Of a DNA stretch of 64,000 bases, positions 5,851-39,379 are shown piece after piece (position 1 is the first letter of the stretch; each line of letters begins with the position of its first letter). The position numbers and the translations under genes are program-made. The notes under the pieces are model-generated. The model did not search any database, was not told where the DNA came from, and saw only the letters and a program-made list of their open reading frames with translations. The DNA is from Pyrus communis (lineage: Eukaryota; Streptophyta; Magnoliopsida; Rosales; Rosaceae): contig NC_084803.1 of the NCBI RefSeq assembly GCF_963583255.1, positions 6,252,238 through 6,316,237 of the forward strand. Reading direction: 5' to 3'.

Positions 5851-6188
5851 TTTTTCTTTTTTGAGTTCGAGTTCGATTTCTTCCGACTACAAATATCAAA
5901 TATCGTTTTGGTACCAAAACATATCTTTTATAACCTTAACGAAAATGGATATATAACTGTCAACTAAGAGCAACTCCACCTCTAAGACTTTGCACCAGCA
6001 CCAAGCTCATTTATCCACTTCAGTGAACAGTAATAGACCATAATGAACAGTAATAGGCCAAAGCATCTTCATCCAAAAAAAAATGTGCTGGCACTCAGTC
6101 CATTTAAAATATTAAATAATTTTTTTATAAAATAATAAAAAAAAATAGTTTTAATTTCGGATAGGATTTTTAAACAATCTCGTCACGC

Positions 6189-6478
6189 CACGTGTCATTA
6201 TCCGAACGTACTATTTTTTTAATAGATTTCCGCTAAGATTTTCAACCAATCCCGACAACCCACGTGTCACTTCCTGTTTACAATAATTTAGGTAAGATTT
6301 CGATAAGATTTTTAACCAATCTTGTCACGCCACGTGTCATTATCCGAACGTACTATTTTGTAGATAGATTTCGGATAAGATTTTCAACCAATCGCGACAC
6401 ACCACGTGTCACTTCCTATTTACAATAATTTAGCCAAGATTTCGATAAGATTTTCAACCAATCACGTAGTGCCACGTG
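6189..6478 (+). promoter_or_regulatory. Five regularly spaced G-boxes upstream of the transposase
   Basis: CACGTG occurs at 6189, 6261, 6331, 6403 and 6473, with spacings of 72, 70, 72 and 70 bp. The palindromes sit in a tandem repeat of alternating half units (GATAAGATTTT, CAACCAATC, CACGTGTCA). CCAAT sits about 15-20 bp before each. A TATA box (TATAAA, 6516-6521) follows, about 95 bp before the transposase ATG. G-boxes are bound by plant bZIP and bHLH factors; transposase binding to these subterminal repeats is an alternative role. Confidence 0.75.
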
Positions 6479-6614
6479 GCATTGTCCAGAACCTCATCTT
6501 CTCTTTTTTTGTCCATATAAACCCTACATCCCTACATTCATCCTCACACTAAACTCAATCCTTTTTTTTAGCTCAGAATTCTTCTTTATCGTTTTCAAAT
6601 CTTGAGTTCTTACA

Positions 6615-8021
6615 ATGTATTCTTCAAGGAGAGCGTATAAACAGTTGCAAGAGCAGCAGAAAAGGTTGTTGGCACAACAGGAAGAATTGGTCAATCTTGA
6701 CCAAGGTGGAGGTGGAGATGAGGCCTTCGCAATGGAGGAGGATGAGGATGATCACCATAGAAGGTGGAGGGCCTCACATTCCCGCCGTATCATGGAAGCT
6801 ATGGGTCAGATAGCCAAACCTAGACGTGCGGCAAACATCGATAGAAGAAGGGAAAGACGAGGTAAAAATCTCTTAGAAGATTATTTTATTCCCAACAGCG
6901 TTTTCCCTGATCATGTTTTTAGACGTCGTTTTAGAATGCAACGAAGTTTGTTCGATAAAATCATGAGTGATGCTTGCAACCATGATCCATATTTTGTGCA
7001 AAAAGATGATGCTTTTCATGTTCTAGGTCTTATTCCTGAGCAAAAAATTACGGCTGCCTTGCGAATGCTTGCATATGGAGCATCTGCAGATCAAGTGGAT
7101 GAGATCGCAAGGATGGGAAAAACAACAGTTCTGGAGTCCCTGATGCGGTTTTGCTCTGCAATTGAAGCCCTTTACACCAATGAGTACCTTCGGCAACCCA
7201 CACCAAGGGACATGCGAAGGCTTCTGAGGAAGGGTGAGATGTGAGGCTTCCCTGGCATGATTGGAAGCATCGACTGCATGCACTGGACATGGAAAAACTG
7301 TCCAAGTGCGTGGCAAGGAGCTTATGGCGACAGAAAATGAGCCAAAAACATCATTTTAGAAGCAGTGGCTTCTTTTGATACATGGATTTGGCATGCTTTT
7401 TTCGGTGTTCCAGGAGCTCAGAACAACCTAAATGTCCTTACCCAATCTCCAGTGTTTGACGAACTGCTACAAGGAAATGAGCCGAGATGCACATATTGGG
7501 TTAATGGTTATAAATACGAGGGACCATACTACCTTGCAGATGGTATTTACCCAAGGTGGTCAACATTTGTCAAAACAGTGCCACATCCGCAGAGTGAAAA
7601 AGAGAAACACTTCGCAAAGTGTCAAGAAGGGTGTAGGAAGGATGTCGAGCGTTGTTTTGGTATCCTGCAAGCTCGTTGGGCCATTGTCAGAGCTGCAGCT
7701 AGAATGTTTGATGTCGAGGCTCTTCGATCCATCATGATGACGTGTATTATTCTCCACAACATGATTGTTAAAGACGAGTATGATTATGATGCCGTCGATG
7801 AATACGAGCCGGATCCGATGAACAACTCAAGAACACAAATCTACTATGCTCATGACCGGACCGAAGATCCCGTGCAACACGAGCCGTTGGAATGGAATGG
7901 ACGTTACAATGAATTGATCGTTCAGCGGTACACTTCATTGCACGAGCCATACTGGCACATAACCCGGCAGAATGACTTGATTGACCATCAGTGGAGATTG
8001 CACGAAGGCGAAGATAATTAA
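6615..8021 (+). pseudogene. Harbinger DDE transposase (HARBI1/ALP1-like) with two stops
   Basis: One uninterrupted frame of 469 codons without intron encodes a HARBI1-like nuclease, broken only by TGA at 7242-7244 and TGA at 7338-7340. No frameshift is present. Catalytic positions remain recognisable: first Asp in GSIDCMHW, just after the first stop; second Asp in LADGIYPRW; Glu in VERCFGILQARW. The N-terminal part has a Gln/Glu-rich start and a helix-turn-helix-like block (ALRMLAYGASADQVDEIARMG). The first stop fits CGA to TGA (Arg to stop), a typical methyl-CpG decay. In the living element this protein would cut the TIRs. This copy should yield only a 209-residue fragment, so it would need transposase from elsewhere. 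Confidence 0.92.
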
Positions 8022-8034
8022 AATAAAGTTCTAA

Positions 8035-8425
8035 AAATGGTGAGGTTATGTAATTTTATTTGGTGTTTTTTTAAGTTTAAATGGTGAGGTTATGTAATTT
8101 TATTTGGTGTTTTTTTTTTTAAATGTTTATTTGGTGAGTTTATGTAATCTTATTCAAATATTTAAATAAAGTACAAAAATTACATAAGAAATTAAATAAA
8201 GTTCTAAAAATAAATAAGAAATTACATAAGAAATTAAATAAAGTTCTAAAAATAAATAAGAAATTACATAAGAATTTAAATAAAGTTCTAAAAGTAAATA
8301 AGAAATTACATAAGAAATTAAATAAAGTTCTAAAAATAAATAAGAAATTACATAAGAAATTAAATAAAGTTCTAAAAATAAATAAGAAATTACATAAGAA
8401 ATTAAATAAAGTAATACAAATAAAT
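8035..8425. repeat. 42-bp tandem repeat between the two Harbinger genes
   Basis: About six units of 42 bp of the form TTCTAAAAATAAATAAG + AAATTACATAAG + AAATTAAATAAAG run from about 8175 to 8420. A shorter direct repeat (GGTGAGGTTATGTAATTTTATTTGG) lies at 8040-8115. The array sits in the shared 3' region of the convergent transposase and Myb genes and may supply AATAAA-type poly(A) signals in both directions. The 14-codon periodic reading frame across it is a by-product of the 42-bp period. Confidence 0.85.
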
Positions 8426-8431
8426 CCGAAA

Positions 8432-9723
8432 TTATACAAAGTCTGTGGAGTTAGGATATGTGGTGCTAAGATCTTGGTTGCTAGGATTTCTGTAGCTGGA
8501 ACCCCCTTGACTTGTTTCGGCATCTCTTGCACGCCTCATTCGCACGACATCTCTTTTTTCTGATGTCCAAAAATATTTTGAATTCGGAGATAGTCCTACT
8601 AGAGACTTGTTCATAGTGTCATGATCTGTTTGAGCCATCATTTCTTCTCTAAGCATCTCTTTCTCTCGATGAAGTGCTTCTCTAATCATCTCGTTCTCTC
8701 GATTAACTATTTTTCTTTGTCTATCAGTCGCCGCATTACGAGCCTCAGTAGTTGCTATTATTGCTGCCATAGCAGTAACTTTTTCCTCATCTCTAGCCTT
8801 TTCCCATGCCATGTTCAGTTCACATTGACGAGTAAGTTCCTCCATATATTTAGTGTAGTCATTTTTGGAAGAACCACTTTTTTTCTTTGATGCCTTTTTA
8901 CCTTGAGGCCTGAGGGACTGACGAGTCGGTTGGGTCTCTGGCACTTCTTCAGGCATCCCTTTCGTGTCTTCAAATGTGTTGGCTTCTTGTTCGGCTGTGT
9001 CTGCTTCTGGCGAACTGTGTAGACCCATACCGTGCATGACAACTTCTGGACCGGTTGTCACAATTTTGTATCTAGGGCAATCTTTGACAATTTGCCAACA
9101 TTCCCATTTGTTGAATGATTTGTTATGGTTCTTTGCATTGTAGAATGCTTGTGCTTGTATTGTCTATAAAAATGTGGGATAAGATAGTATTAAAAAATAC
9201 GGGTGTAACACAAATAAATAAATTAAAATATTGATGGACGTGGAATGCATATAAATCACATAAGAAATTACATAAGAAATTAAATAAATTAAAATATTGA
9301 TGTGGGTGTAACACAAATAAATAAATTAAAATATTGATGGGCGTGGAATGCATATTACATAGAAATTACATAAGAAATTAAATAAATTAAAATATTGATG
9401 TGGGTGGAACGCATATAAATAAATAAAAATATTGTTACCTCATCCGCTAAACTTGTCCCACTACGCAGATTACCAGAAGCATGAGAGATGTCGTTTTTCC
9501 AACAAGTAAAGGATGCGTTGAGTTTTTTCCAACGACCTTGAAGACCTTGACTAGATCTGGCATCTTTTCCATGTACATCTTTTCCATGTACATCGCAAAA
9601 CGATTTCGTAATTTTACTCCACATTTCTCGCTTATCCATCTCATTACCCGTAATCGGGTCATGAGTACTGCGAACCCAACATTCACACAACGTAACATCT
9701 TCACTGAGCTTCCACAAAGTCAT
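8432..9723 (-). CDS. Harbinger Myb/SANT-like accessory DNA-binding protein, two exons
   Basis: Exon 1 is 9723-9439 (95 codons), with donor GAG/GTAACA. Exon 2 is 9163-8432 (244 codons including stop), with acceptor ATAG/ACA. Together they give about 338 residues with no stop. Residues 1-95 form a trihelix/SANT-like domain with spaced Trp residues (MTLWKLSEDVTLCECW, WSKITKSF, GRWKKLN), as in the 'glutathione transferase-like/No apical meristem-associated' proteins encoded by plant PIF elements. The C-terminal half is Lys/Glu-rich and probably coiled coil (about 190-290). A TATAAATA box lies at 9819-9812, about 90 bp upstream. In this superfamily the Myb-like protein binds transposase and carries it to the nucleus and the TIRs. 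Unlike the transposase, this gene looks intact. Confidence 0.88.
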
Positions 9724-10541
9724 TTTTTTCTCTCAAAGTGTACAAAATATTCAAATGTAGAAAGTGTAGAAAATATTGAAATGTGGTGTAAGGTGGAAGA
9801 TGAGGGTTAGGTATTTATAGAAAAACAAAATTAATTTTTTTTAAATTTTTCTATATTTTTTTAAAAAATTTCACAATTTTTAATAATTTTTAATGTTGTT
9901 ATTAACCTGGACCGTTGGATTTGAAAAATAATCAAATCCAACAGCCAACCAGCTGCCACGTGGCCAACGGTCAAATTTCTGACAGTTGGGCCTTTTTTTT
10001 TTTAAATTTTATTTTTGGTGAAAAAAACGTGGACCGTTGATCTGTGATCGGACGGTCCAATTTAAAAGTCAAATTTAAATTTTTTTTACCGTTGGAAATC
10101 CAACGGCCTACAAAAACTAGCCGTTGGAAATCCAACGACTCTGAGGAGGGCCATGTAGCCCTCAGCTGGTCGAAGGCAAGTTGGCCTGAACGCGGGCCCC
10201 ACCGCCTGCAACACTGTCGGCTACTCGCGCCCAGTCGCGAGTGTCGTGCACGCGCCAGCCTTTTGGACCGACTTCTGGGTCTGTCCGAAATGGGCTGGCC
10301 TGCTGCCTGGCTTGGGCTGGGTGCCGGGCTGTTTTGCGGGCTAGAGGCAATGGACAGGGTGCCTGGCTGTTTTTTGGACTTGGTGCTGGGCAAGTCCACC
10401 TCCGGTGGAGTTGCTCTAATAAAGCATTTATGATACCAACAATTTTTTTTTTTTAATAGTAAAATTCAAAAGAAAATTTTTATTTAGACTCATATAACCT
10501 CTTTCTACATTAATTTTTTTTCTGAAAACTGAAGGATTTTC

Positions 10542-33955: not shown

Positions 33956-35396
33956 TTGGGATCTCCGTGCTACCTCCGGTGAGATTAGCAGGGAGAGAGG
34001 GAGAGAGGGAGAGGGAAGGGGGAGGGAATAAGAGCAGCGGGAGTGGGTATTAATAGTAAAATGCGGTGTGGAAAAGTACGTAAAGAAAAAGTGGGCGGCA
34101 CATGAAGTTAAAAGTTTGGTGTTGCATCAGATTACGGAAATGCCCTTGTGAATTGTACGAATGGCGCGAGATGTGGGTTTTGTGGTAATTAAACATGACG
34201 GGATCTTCGTATACAAGTAATGCAATATATTTTATTTATTTTGTGAAGATCTGACCGTTGGATCCTAGAATCTGGAAGAATCCTGATGCTGACACGAAAC
34301 AAGTTGATCGTGTGGTGGGCCACCTGAATCTGGCGGGGTTTTGGATTCTCCCCTGCCTCTTTTTCCTTTCCTGCCTCCCTTTCCTTTTCTTCTCTCTCAA
34401 TGTACATAGGAGGTAATCCTGAGCGTCCAAATAGAATGTGAGAGGGAAAGGGAGATAATTCGGATCCTCTTTATGTTTGATTACGTAATTGCCTAGTTAT
34501 GTTTGATTATTTTTTTAACTGTGTTATTTGAACTTGAGATTTCTTCAAATATTTATACTAAGAGCTAGTTCAAAACGTTTTACAATTTTAATATATTACA
34601 TTGTCAGGTTGCTCAAAATTATTGTTTATTCAGAATCTTATATTACGTTTTCAAATTACTTGCAGTTATTATTTATGTGCAATCATGTTTTAAGATATGG
34701 ACTTAATCAATAAAAGTTTGTTAAAATAGCATACCAAAACACAATAACCTGTTAAATTCTAAAATGATATTATCAATATGGTTGTGTCGACACGAACATG
34801 AAATGACTAATCAAATAGTATATAAAATGCTATGCGATATATTACATTCTAGTTCGAGGGTTAATTTTCCTAAGACCAATAACAATCCACTTTCTTTTTT
34901 AATTAAACATGACCAATTTAAAAATACAATATTTACATTTTTCTTTTTTGAACAATTGATATTATCTACACTAGGGGGATGGGTTTGGTCTTAGCCTCAC
35001 AATGGGCTAGCAATAATATAGTTCAAATTCACCTTTGGTGAGAATCGAATCTAAGACCTCTCACTTACAAGTGAAGAAGAGTATTATTAGACCGTAGTAC
35101 TAAGTAACAAATATTTACATTAAATAGTATATAAAATGCTATGCCATATATGAGGCTAAGCCAACTCCCTTTTTCTTAGTGTAAGTAATACGGTTTGTTA
35201 AAAAATGATACGAAATTAGTTGCAAGAATATTTGGGGCCACATATTTAAATAGGTTAGGCTTACTATCATGCCAAGTCACCTAATAGCATTGTTAATTTT
35301 TATAGTGAATTATTGGTCCTTATATGTGTAATGGAAGGTCTAATTTATTTATTTAACCATTTTCACAATGGGACTATATTTAATGATGTCCTTTTA
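33956..35396. other. bZIP9 upstream region and AT-rich intergenic DNA
   Basis: 33985-34025 is a GA-rich tract (GGGAGAGAGGGAGAGAGGGA), which reads as a CT-rich leader on the bZIP9 strand. The rest is AT-rich. A SINE-like degenerate stretch may lie at 34975-35110, but no boundaries could be fixed. Confidence 0.45.
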
Positions 35397-36051
35397 GACC
35401 ATCTCCAGTCGAAGGAGGGCTAGAGGGCTCGTTTTAGCCCTCTGGTCCTCCAAGAAATTAATATTGTAATGAATACTGCAGTGCTATATTTCTTAGGCTA
35501 TCTCCAACCGAAGGTTGGCCAAATAGCTCGTTTTAACCCTCTAGCCCTCCAAGAAATTAATATTTTAATGAACAGTGCAGGGCCATATTTCTTAGGCCAT
35601 CTCCAACCGAAGGCTGGCCAGAGGGTTTGTTTTAGCTCTTTGGCCCTCCAAAGAATTATTTTAATGAACAATGCAAGACCATATTTCTTACCATCTCCAA
35701 CCGAGGGCCAATGAGACATAAGGCCAAACATAATTTATTATTTAAATTTAAAAACTACAAAAACTTAAATTAAATGAAATATATAAAATAAATTGTGAAA
35801 ACACTTACTTCGTTGTAGTAACTGGCGCTGCTTTCATGTCTACTTGCAGTGGTTAACAGTTGCATGTTAAATTAATTTTTTAATTTAAGTGTCAAATTAC
35901 TAGTACAACTTAGTTTGAGATAGTTACATGTATAAATGCACATTTACCATCTCTAATAGGAATCTTATATTTGGGGCACCCATTATATTTGTCCCACATC
36001 GAGAGAGAATTGAGCAAGCATAAGCTTGCATGTGTGGCACTCATTATATTT

Positions 36052-36148
36052 GTCCTACATCGGTTGTGGAAGAGGTTTGAGCAATAAAACATGCTTATAA
36101 AAGCAACATTCCCGCATATAACCAATCACCTTTCTGGGCCTTAATTAA
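36052..36148 (+). promoter_or_regulatory. U2 snRNA-type promoter plus U2 5' end, copy A
   Basis: GTCCTACATCG (36052-36062) differs by one base from the plant snRNA Upstream Sequence Element RTCCCACATCG. A TATA box (TATAAAAG, 36096-36103) follows after 33 bp, the RNA polymerase II snRNA spacing. Where transcription would start, ACCTTTCTGGGCCTTAA (about 36128) resembles the first bases of U2 (ATACCTTTCTCGGCC). An extra exact USE, GTCCCACATCG, lies at 35991-36001 without its own TATA box. After about 17 bases the U2 likeness is lost, so this is not a U2 gene. Confidence 0.65.
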
Positions 36149-36646
36149 ATATTTTTTTTTAAATTTTTGGCCCAAAAAAAAAAAACTATTAAAAAAAATT
36201 TCAAAAATAACAGTTAGCTTATTCAAAAATTTTAGGCTGCCCTGGGGCCGACTAGCTGGCTCATTTGGGTCGTCACGTTGGTCCTTTGACCCTTTTTTGT
36301 CTAGTAGGGCCCACGAGCCCTTCAGCTTGGCCCTTAGTTAGAGATGATTTTAGGGCTATTTTCAGCCCTTGGACCCTTTGGTTGAGATGCCTTACCATCT
36401 CCAACCCAGGGCCAAATGGTCATAGGGCTTGTTTTAGCCCTCTCACAAAAAACCGTCTCCAACCGAGGGCTATAGGGCCAAACATAATTTATTATTTAAA
36501 TTTAAAAACTACAAAATTTTAAAAATACAACTTAAATTTAAAAACTACAACTAAAATTTAAAAAATACAACTTATATATTTCAAGTCAAATGTGAGAGGT
36601 TTTATTTAGAGTATTTAAAAATAAAAAATAAAAAAAGTGGGTGGGA

Positions 36647-36742
36647 GTCCCACATCGGTTGTGAGAGAGATTTAAGCAAGCACTAAAGCCTATAAAAAGA
36701 ACACCAAAACATTCAACTAAACATACTTTCTAGGCCTATTAA
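36647..36742 (+). promoter_or_regulatory. U2 snRNA-type promoter plus U2 5' end, copy B
   Basis: The exact Upstream Sequence Element GTCCCACATCG lies at 36647-36657, and a TATA box (TATAAAAAG, 36691-36699) starts after 33 bp. ATACTTTCTAGGCCTATT (from 36723) sits about 32 bp after the TATA start and resembles the U2 snRNA 5' end. Spacing fits the polymerase II class (33-34 bp), not the shorter polymerase III class used by U6. The U2 body is missing. It duplicates copy A within the same mobile element. Confidence 0.7.
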
Positions 36743-37129
36743 ATATATTTTTTTTAAATTTGGGCCCCCAAAAAAAAAAAAAATCAAATAACGATATGTC
36801 AGCTAGTCGTTGGTTTCAAATTTATGGCTCCTTTGGGCTAGTCGGTTGGCTCCTTTGGTCCAGTCGGTTGGCTCCCTTGGGCCAGCCGGTTGGCCATTTG
36901 GCCCATTTTGTCCAGTGAGGCCCACGAGCCATTTGGCCTGGCCCTCAATTAGAGACGACTTCCTTTGGGTCAGTTGGTTGGCTCATTTAGTCCAGTCAAT
37001 TGGCTCCTTTGGGCCAGCCGGTTGGCCCTTTGGCCCTTTTTTGTCCAGTGAGGTCCACGAACCCTTTGCCTTGGCCCTCGATTAGAGACGACTTTAAGGC
37101 TGTTTTCGGCCCTTCGATTGGAGATGGTC

Positions 37130-39379
37130 TTAGAGATTTGTGCCTTCTTGTTTGATAGGTCCTTGTCCATTGGAATTGGACATGGTTTCTATGATTTTAA
37201 TAGTATTAAGGAGCTAGAACTATGAATGATTACTTTCCTTTTAAAATAAAAAGGGTGATGCTAGGGGCAGTTTGGGATTAATGTGCCTTTAAAAAAACAT
37301 TTTTTAGAAGCATGGATAAACCTGCTGCTTCTACTTTCTACTGATTTAGACCCATGATTTTAAAGAGAAAATAATGTTTTTTTTTCATTTACCAAACGCA
37401 ATTAAAACCCCAATTTTTTTTTTAAAATATATACTTTTAAAACAATTTAAACAACATCAAACCAGCCCTAAGTGTACACAACCTAGCTTTTTACGTCATC
37501 CTTCTTAATCACAACACTAGCTAGTGCAAATCATTAGCAATTTTATACTGCTTTATGCAATATTGACATCATTTATTCATGTGGCTGTAACTTCTTTAAA
37601 TCGTCGATGCATTATAAATGGACCACAATTATTTACGAATGGACGTGTAAACGAATAATATATTAAAGACAAGTGTGTTAAAAGATATTTATTATGGATG
37701 GACAAGTGTTTTGCTTTATGCCCATGGCATTGGATCCAATATGGAAATGCACAGTTGCTACTTTAGGCCATGCCCTTATAACATTTCATAAAGTTTCCTT
37801 GTAATTTCATGGATATAATTATAAAGTTTGAATTAGAGAGTTTAATAAAGCAAGGACTCTCTATGTTCCTTAATCAATTTGGATAAGCTTTAAACAAAGG
37901 GGCCACCAATGAAATGCAGTCAAAATCCAACAAAAGATCACACTGTGTAATCTTCCATCTTTATGCAAAAGCTATAAATTAAATTAAATTAATGCCTTGA
38001 TGGCAAAGCATATAGCTAGGGGTTAGTGGTTTGTTTAGGTAAATAGAGTGGATCTCTAAGGATTAGTTTAGGTGTGGAAAAGCAAATTAAAGCTTGATTT
38101 AGACAAGCACCGACCTAAAAACAAAGATGCTGATGGATGCTTTGCATGCCTTGCTAAATAATGATAATGTTATTCGCACATTCATATTTACCTAGTTATT
38201 ACATATTTTTATTAATTTTTTATCATTAATCTTCTTCAATTTATTTGATTCAACGATAAAAAATTAAGAGAAGTGTGTAAAAAATAAAAATGTGGATAAC
38301 ACTACCTTGCTAAAAGGGATGGTTTTCTCCTCCACTTTCTTTTGAGTTTTTTTTGTAAAGCAATGAGCTTTGGATTTTGCTTTTTCATGGCTTTATATGG
38401 TTTTATTTAAGACCAGGTAATACCTAATTTGGAAAAGGATCCTCGTCGGATTCTTTTTCTGGGAATTTTAAAGATTTTGTTATCGTGACCGTTTATTGTA
38501 CATCGTGCGATCAGTTTTCATTATGTACTGTTTATATTTAATTTTAAATTTTAAATTTTAAAATAATTTCTAATCGTACAATATATGATAAATGATCACG
38601 ATCATAAAATCTCTAGAATCCTCAAAAAAAAAAGATTCGGTGAATATCATTTTTCACCTAACTTTTTATTTAAGCTGAATGATCAGAAAAGCCCCCACGT
38701 CAGAGCCACCATAAAAAAGCAGTCTAATTTCTTGCAAATATGAAAAATGACCAAGTGGCCAAAAAGTAAAACATCACAAGTTTTCGATTTCATGATGGTG
38801 AAATATTGGACTCAATTTTCTGTACCAAAACTGGACTTGTTCTCCACTTTCTACTCGTGGTATTATTAGTGCCTTTCTTACTCTAGGAGGTTTCTTCCAA
38901 GTTCTTAAAATGAAAATTGCTAAAGAGATTTTTTTAAATTGAGATTTTTTATGAACTCTCTTTAACTTATCAGTTTAACGTTAATTTTTATATTATTATA
39001 AAATACTATGCAAAAAACATGAAATGATAGAGAATTTACAAAGAGTCTTACTTTTAATAGAGTATCTTTAACATTTCTCTATTAAAATTGGATTCACTTA
39101 GGGCTAGGGATCTAGGGCAACATTTTTTTGTTTGTTTGAATTTTTCAGCTCGAGTTGTAGGGTTTCTTGTTTTCTACTTTCTTCACATTAATCACGTTAA
39201 TAGTAATGGCCCTCACTTATTCACAACTCCATTTCATTATCCATTATGTATTTCCATTTCCTCAACAAGTGAGCTTAATTCGTGCCTATCCTTACTATCT
39301 ATTTTTACCATTCTTTGGATAAAGAAAAGAAACTTGAGTAGGAAGGCTGCTTGGCTACTATCAGAACTCACGCAAGTAC
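37130..39379. other. Intergenic with small MITE-like elements
   Basis: 37262-37469 has imperfect TIR-like ends (AGGGGCAGTTTGGG and CAAACCAGCCCT) typical of hAT-related MITEs. 38164-38304 has imperfect inverted ends (GTTATTCGCACATTC and GTGGATAACAC). 38431-38655 is listed separately. No gene was recognised; the frame at 39088-39417 has no coding look. Confidence 0.5.
38431..38655. mobile_element. MULE-type MITE (225 bp), same family as 18995
   Basis: It starts GGAAAAGGATCCTCGTCGG and shares the core TTTATATTTAATTTTAAATTTTAAA with the element at 18995-19228. The right end is eroded (ATCATTTTTC). Flanks ACCTAATTT (38422-38430) and ACCTAACTT (38656-38664) match at 8 of 9 positions. Confidence 0.8.

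Follow-up and report, generated by a model that had tools for sequence, protein, structure and literature searches.

A Harbinger-type MITE family of Pyrus communis that probably captured and multiplied a U2 snRNA gene promoter

How do promoters of the kind that drive snRNA genes come to lie inside a mobile element, and do they do anything there? Passages of one paper (PMC9845283) describe the Upstream Sequence Element (USE) and the TATA box as the basal elements of plant snRNA promoters, standing four helical turns apart in genes transcribed by RNA polymerase II (Pol II) and one turn fewer in those transcribed by Pol III, and, according to passages of another (PMC5079582), Pol II snRNA genes conserve both elements and cannot do without them, and need a 3' box for processing. 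A sequence-only reading had picked out both elements, each time followed by a U2-like start, between the ends of a putative Harbinger-type element on contig C1 of Pyrus communis. The window referred to below is the whole 64,000-nucleotide stretch of DNA that was analysed (C1:6252238-6316237), and the genome to which it belongs comprises 487 Mb in 29 contigs.

The three USE sites named in that reading are present, two of them exact and one with a single mismatch to the consensus RTCCCACATCG (Table 1). Two of them head modules that we call A and B, in each of which TATAAAA lies exactly 33 bp past the USE, a placement of about four helical turns from the USE and about 30 bp before the start that is the one found in plant Pol II snRNA promoters. 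The U2-like start described some 30 bp past each TATA box held up as well. Ungapped, module A matches 13 of the first 16 nucleotides of U2 (chance about 2.4e-5 over 13 offsets), and module B matches only 11 of 16 from 36722 (chance about 0.3%), the latter match being improved by a gapped alignment that starts at 36723. When eight snRNA 5' ends were compared about 30 bp past each TATA box, U2 alone beat 300 of 300 shuffles, in both modules, and other snRNAs were therefore rejected as the source; the U2 5' end used in this comparison agrees with the U2 genes of the genome. The third USE lacks a TATA box and belongs to a third promoter copy, which is degraded (module C). An Sm-like site, AATTTTTGG, at 36162 was given no weight, because it is confined to copy A and the two strands of the window contain 22 matches to its pattern.

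Could an AT-rich MITE simply have happened on a USE, a TATA box and a U2-like start, by chance or by convergence? TATA boxes are common in AT-rich DNA, and the USE is unprotected from mutation in this family. Against this, USE sites with at most one mismatch number seven in the window where 0.78 are expected (0 of 100 shuffles get to seven), and there are two pairs of such a USE with a TATA box at 30-36 bp, both in the element, where 0.016 per window are expected from simulated DNA with the dinucleotide make-up of the window. Genome-wide, the exact pattern RTCCCACATCG-N30-36-TATAAA occurs 151 times and the reversed pattern once. In addition, homology to a U2 gene runs hundreds of bases upstream, and chance is refuted by a contiguous match from -194 to +16 at one locus, described below, so that we rate its probability as close to nil.

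Table 1. Coordinates of the features in the window
Feature	Position	Strand	Details
Compound of tandem Harbinger-type MITE copies	35394..37132	+	outer TIRs, TTA outside both
Left end, three times	35394..35690	+	99-bp units, each starting with TTA + TIR (35394, 35493, 35592)
Unit 1, MITE copy with module A	35592..36394	+	right end-like motif 36374-36391, then TTA
Putatively captured U2 upstream DNA, about -625 to -541 of C6 U2 gene	35904..35988 (85 bp)	+	92% identical
USE of degraded module C	35991..36001	+	exact, TATA box absent, 61 bp upstream of module A
Module A, putatively captured U2 promoter	36052..36142	+	USE 36052-36062 (1 mismatch), TATA 36096, U2-like 5' end from 36126
Unit 2, MITE copy with module B	36392..37132	+	without the outer 97-bp left end
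Putatively captured U2 upstream DNA, about -546 to -493 of C6 U2 gene	36572..36625 (54 bp)	+	96% identical
Module B, putatively captured U2 promoter	36645..36740	+	USE 36647-36657 (exact), TATA 36691, U2-like 5' end from 36722-36723

The outer TIRs of the region had been read correctly: 35397-35415 and 37111-37129 match at 18 of 19 positions, with TTA on both sides. The notion of a single 1.7-kb element did not survive, since five further left-end-like motifs lie inside it and the 99-bp left end is present three times, the other copies being 82% and 67% identical to the first. What had been taken for one element consists of two members, in tandem, of a Harbinger-type MITE family with a length of about 0.55-0.95 kb, plus extra left ends. 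No transposase lies inside the element, and elsewhere in the genome the same type of element is found solo. The 99-bp steps are exact.

A search of the genome with module A gave at least 40 matches (40 of 51 candidates scored), 71-100% identical, and matches to the family are spread over contigs numbered up to C17. Together with module B and four modules that came from the exact USE-TATA pattern (L012, L020, L071 and L072), the 40 similarity matches make up 45 modules, distributed over 43 loci; the count excludes L009 (overlapping L001), L041 (overlapping L005) and secondary weak matches of the same loci, and had stood at 67 rows before. The sequence-only reading had staked its account on most copies of the family keeping the promoter, and most of those examined do: a USE with at most one mismatch is followed by a TATA box at exactly 33 bp in 32 of the 45 modules, although this and the other retention figures are upper estimates, because both USE and TATA were part of the query and four modules were found by the exact USE-TATA pattern. 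Taken singly, the USE is exact in 20 modules and within one mismatch in 36, and the TATA box is at exactly 33 bp in 37; USE, TATA at 33 bp and at least 12 of the 16 U2 nucleotides coincide in 28. Among the 40 modules found by similarity the USE is exact in 15 and within one mismatch in 31, TATA is at 33 bp in 32, and 27 have both.

TIRs with TTA or TAA flanks likewise recur at other loci of the family. Left and right TIR-like motifs at four or fewer mismatches, inner motifs counted, bracket 38 of the 45 modules; when the outermost TIR-like motifs were taken with flanks ignored and with tighter distance limits, 35 modules had both ends, and 10 were without one end by the pattern used. The flanking 3-mers are identical in 18 of the 35 two-ended modules, and are then always TTA or TAA, whereas shuffling of partners gave a mean of 10.0 identical flanks and reached 18 once in 2000 shuffles. 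These 18 modules are 544-953 bp in length. Flanks are unlike in the other 17, among which six left ends are inner motifs, and therefore the outer ends of those six elements have been lost or have diverged. An earlier count of 22 of 23 alike flanks took only TTA- or TAA-flanked ends, sometimes inner motifs, and so overstates the agreement; it was replaced by the flank-blind count. Harbinger elements duplicate TTA or TAA on insertion, and as in PIF/Harbinger (Tourist-type) MITEs, the members of the family have TIRs and 3-bp TTA/TAA (TWA) target-site duplications, lack a transposase, measure hundreds of bp and are dispersed; they differ in the Pol II snRNA promoter that they appear to have captured. 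PIF/Harbinger is one of the MITE superfamilies according to the relevant portion of a review (PMC12595863).

Another PIF/Harbinger-type element lies at about 5970-10400 of the window, with the TIR GAGCAACTCCACC and TAA flanks. A transposase open reading frame (PF04827, PF13359) occupies 7341-8021, its first part perhaps lying at 6606-7244, and the opposite strand has a PF14303 open reading frame. The TIR of this transposase-bearing element differs from that of the MITE, and no autonomous partner sharing the MITE TIR was identified. Scans of viral and genome contig collections for USE plus U2, or for the TIR, gave no match.

From which gene, then, might the promoter have come? A search with RF00004 returned at least 36 U2 matches in the genome, at least 32 of them over the cut-off (46 of 24,035 candidates scored). 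Several of those over the cut-off lie close together on C6, C4 and C14, and outside USE and TATA their promoter sequences differ widely. Upstream DNA was taken as short stretches for 28 of the 32, the other four lying within larger loci; several of the 28 stretches are without a USE and may belong to pseudogenes, and one stops before the start. Similarity to a local U2 promoter, which the capture idea had demanded, proved strong and extends far past USE and TATA. The gene concerned, on C6, is full-length and scores 169.7 bits, second best among the matches listed. It matches the element in blocks at 42 of the 43 loci, and modules A and B are 75% and 77% identical to it. At 11 loci the homology to its upstream DNA begins at -625. 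In its coordinates, A-type copies join about -541 to about -76 and B-type copies join about -493 to about -78, while L071 is unbroken from -194 to +16, 87% identical to the gene, between TIRs with TTA; the whole of -625 to +16 is in no single copy examined. Downstream, the homology stops at U2 nucleotides 15-17 in 32 of 38 aligned ends, after which similar MITE sequence follows, and for this reason the simplest account is a single capture, with internal deletions afterwards.

Comparison with the other U2 genes points the same way. Outside USE and TATA, all eight MITE modules tested (of the 45) are nearest to the C6 gene among 16 alignable U2 promoters; over the whole promoter seven of the eight are, and module A ties with the gene on C4. 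In a tree of 27 MITE modules and 15 U2 promoters, built from 78 columns, those 27 of the 45 modules form one group with the C6 and C4 U2 genes (support 99/96), apart from the 13 remaining U2 promoters. Inside that group resolution is poor and the label needs two changes, so that a single capture is the simplest account, not proven. The C6 U2 gene is the nearest relative of the donor that was found, and by its sequence it is likely to be the donor itself.

Gene and element could also have stood in the opposite relation, with the C6 and C4 U2 genes having got their promoter from the mobile element. Such a transfer would fit the lower similarity that the other 14 of the 16 U2 promoters show once USE and TATA are set aside (0.48-0.57 identity as medians over all 16). 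However, the C6 and C4 loci have upstream DNA in common outside the captured pieces too, which is seen in no examined MITE, no TIR-like sequence is present at either locus within the approximately 3 kb examined, and the MITE has U2 nucleotides 1-16 only. Since the two loci share non-MITE upstream DNA and have no TIRs nearby, it is therefore the gene that gave and the MITE that took, and a promoter passed from element to gene is very improbable. A U2 pseudogene formed by retroposition was rejected, as promoter and upstream DNA are included; capture at the DNA level is most likely, because reverse-transcribed U2 RNA would be without the promoter.

We consider it highly probable that a MITE captured a piece of a U2 gene, diversified by internal loss and spread by transposition, with the promoter as its passenger. 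A non-autonomous PIF/Harbinger-type MITE would have taken about 640 bp of a U2 gene (about -625 to +16, U2 nucleotides 1-16 included) at the DNA level, most simply once, and probably as one contiguous 640-bp piece. Gap repair with template switching is a common proposal for such captures, and the piece may have been acquired during gap repair or template switching here. It would then have lost different internal stretches, giving rise to subfamilies with USE, TATA and U2 start in common, and Harbinger transposase supplied elsewhere would have mobilised the copies via their TIRs. The result would be the present set of at least 45 modules, some now incomplete, spread over the chromosomes, with two members in tandem in the window. 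From such a copy, a Pol II transcript is predicted to begin with a U2-like 5' leader, to continue into MITE sequence and to lack the 3' processing of snRNAs.

The modules could be active promoters on which the family depends, for instance by producing short capped RNAs that benefit the element or label its copies, and both the number of modules with USE and TATA at exact spacing, a count that is biased upward, and the predicted transcripts of modules A and B, which fold better than shuffles (z -2.4 and -3.4), speak in favor of this. The way in which the copies have diverged does not: neighbouring sites of matched composition have changed no more than USE and TATA. Among 22 copies of the A type, GC sites depart from the consensus at 20 of 153 positions in the USE, 31 of 347 in the spacer and 19 of 220 upstream, and AT sites at 2 of 88, 5 of 366 and 3 of 330, respectively, so that divergence of the USE is not lower than in its flanks; the TATA box departs at 1 of 146, and seems well kept only because AT sites rarely change in these copies. 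Many of the USE mismatches turn CG into TG or CA, as the decay of methylated C does. The promoter thus appears to decay as neutral, methylated repeat DNA would, with no sign of selection. Moreover, the 3' box pattern CA(N)3-10AGTNNAA, which occurs at +192 in both the C6 and the C4 U2 gene, occurs in 0 of 45 MITE copies within 270 nt of the start, although as a test it is imperfect, because three U2 genes of L075 and L076 escape it, with no match within 400 nt. It is because the USE diverges like its surroundings and the 3' box is absent throughout that the promoter looks like a passenger. MITEs are not known to require a transcript of their own in order to move, which also counts against a family that depends on its promoters, and we regard such dependence as quite unlikely.

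The same observations weaken the suggestion that the element might be a step towards new snRNA-like genes. Only U2 nucleotides 1-16 appear to have been captured, and the body of the U2 RNA is missing from the element: Rfam gives no match of any kind in the window at gathering level, U2 included, and no U2 over the element at E<=10. An emerging snRNA gene was rejected on these grounds and on the absence of the 3' box. Rfam miRNA matches in the element are weak and far under their gathering scores.

What the passenger promoter can still do is a separate matter from how it arose. Plant snRNA promoters are compact, and in dicots the sequence above the USE is reported to be of no importance to them (PMC9845283), so that a copied promoter could work wherever it is inserted. 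Judged by these rules, RNA could begin at the U2 start in many copies, and is predicted to go without proper snRNA 3' processing. Copies with an intact USE and the 33-bp spacing would be readable by Pol II from that point, and our expectation that any copy is in fact read is tentative, falling somewhat short of an even chance. Equally, the captured promoter may be methylated and never transcribed, a variant of the capture account that concerns its present state and not its origin. The CG to TG or CA changes among the USE mismatches are consistent with such silence; L006, L054, L056 and L057, which have an exact USE, TATA at 33 bp and 14-15 of the 16 U2 nucleotides, argue against it, and we see the two sides as evenly balanced. 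A further copy, L068, matches U2 at 16 of 16 nucleotides. The family bears on whether snRNA promoters stay active after transposition, and on the fate of RNAs that begin as U2 does but have no processing signal.

Pack-MULEs are DNA transposons with host gene fragments, and resemble the present MITE in that host DNA was copied at the DNA level; they differ in cargo, which here would be a promoter plus 16 nt from the start of a small-RNA gene, and in target-site duplication, which here is of Harbinger type. Brassicaceae MITEs with E2F sites multiply a host regulatory motif genome-wide, as the pertinent section of the MITE review relates (PMC12595863), but what is multiplied there is a 10-bp transcription-factor site, and here a complete basal promoter with its start site. 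Trans-species microRNA genes of Cuscuta, according to a commentary (PMC10226582), are driven by the snRNA USE, with U6-like, Pol III features; the likeness lies in an snRNA USE placed in front of other small RNAs, and the difference in that no mobile elements are mentioned there, whereas the spacing here is the 33 bp of the Pol II type and lies inside a MITE. Dada DNA transposons (PMC3706591) and Utopia non-LTR elements (PMC4640811) are mobile elements linked to snRNA genes; they insert into such genes, whereas the present MITE carries a piece of one. The main text of the 2025 plant MITE review (PMC12595863) contains "snRNA" or "captur" 0 times, and among the best-ranked titles and abstract openings of the open-licence literature no transposon with an snRNA promoter is reported, which does not prove absence. 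The family offers a traced case within one genome, with likely donor gene, breakpoint and descendants, of what would be the capture and multiplication of a complete Pol II small-RNA promoter by a mobile element.

The MITE is one of two repeat families in which USE-TATA pairs are common. Among 100 of the 151 exact pairs (those listed, which run from C1 into C13), spacer similarity assigns 62 to a family of LTR type and 17, comprising 15 MITE copies and two U2 genes (L038 and L075), to the MITE promoter type; the other 21 include U1 genes. Caution is called for when USE and TATA alone are used to find snRNA genes or small RNAs driven by a USE: with 62 LTR-type and 15 MITE pairs among the 100 listed, such scans would often hit repeats in this genome. 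The LTR-like structure comes from one two-copy locus, L073, whose repeat is common to 17 further loci; by its sequence, the second family looks like a non-autonomous LTR element with an snRNA-like LTR promoter. That the MITE and the LTR-type repeat between them hold most complete USE-TATA promoters, and that some of their copies also start capped Pol II RNAs, is a joint proposition that we find rather doubtful. If true, two unrelated mobile classes would outnumber the snRNA genes in complete USE-TATA promoters of the genome, and a dispersed network of snRNA-type transcription would be fed by transposition, with U2-like 5' ends at scattered loci.

Over the 21 nt after the USE, the LTR-type family matches the U2 genes of the C6 cluster (L075 and L076) at 16 of 21 positions (1 of 20,000 shuffles); over 32 nt there are still 16 matches (1077 of 20,000 shuffles). 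A second capture, by the LTR-type family, is a mere lead, because the 21-nt limit was chosen after seeing the match. The USE and TATA box of this family are mostly spaced by 32 bp. At L073 (C2:10412000-10421500), two direct repeats, each about 520 bp long with TG...CA-like ends, are 87.7% alike and stand 4.4 kb apart, and no open reading frame of 110 aa lies between them. The LTR-type repeat was also seen at L011, L013-L018, L021-L024, L026, L028, L030 and L033-L036.
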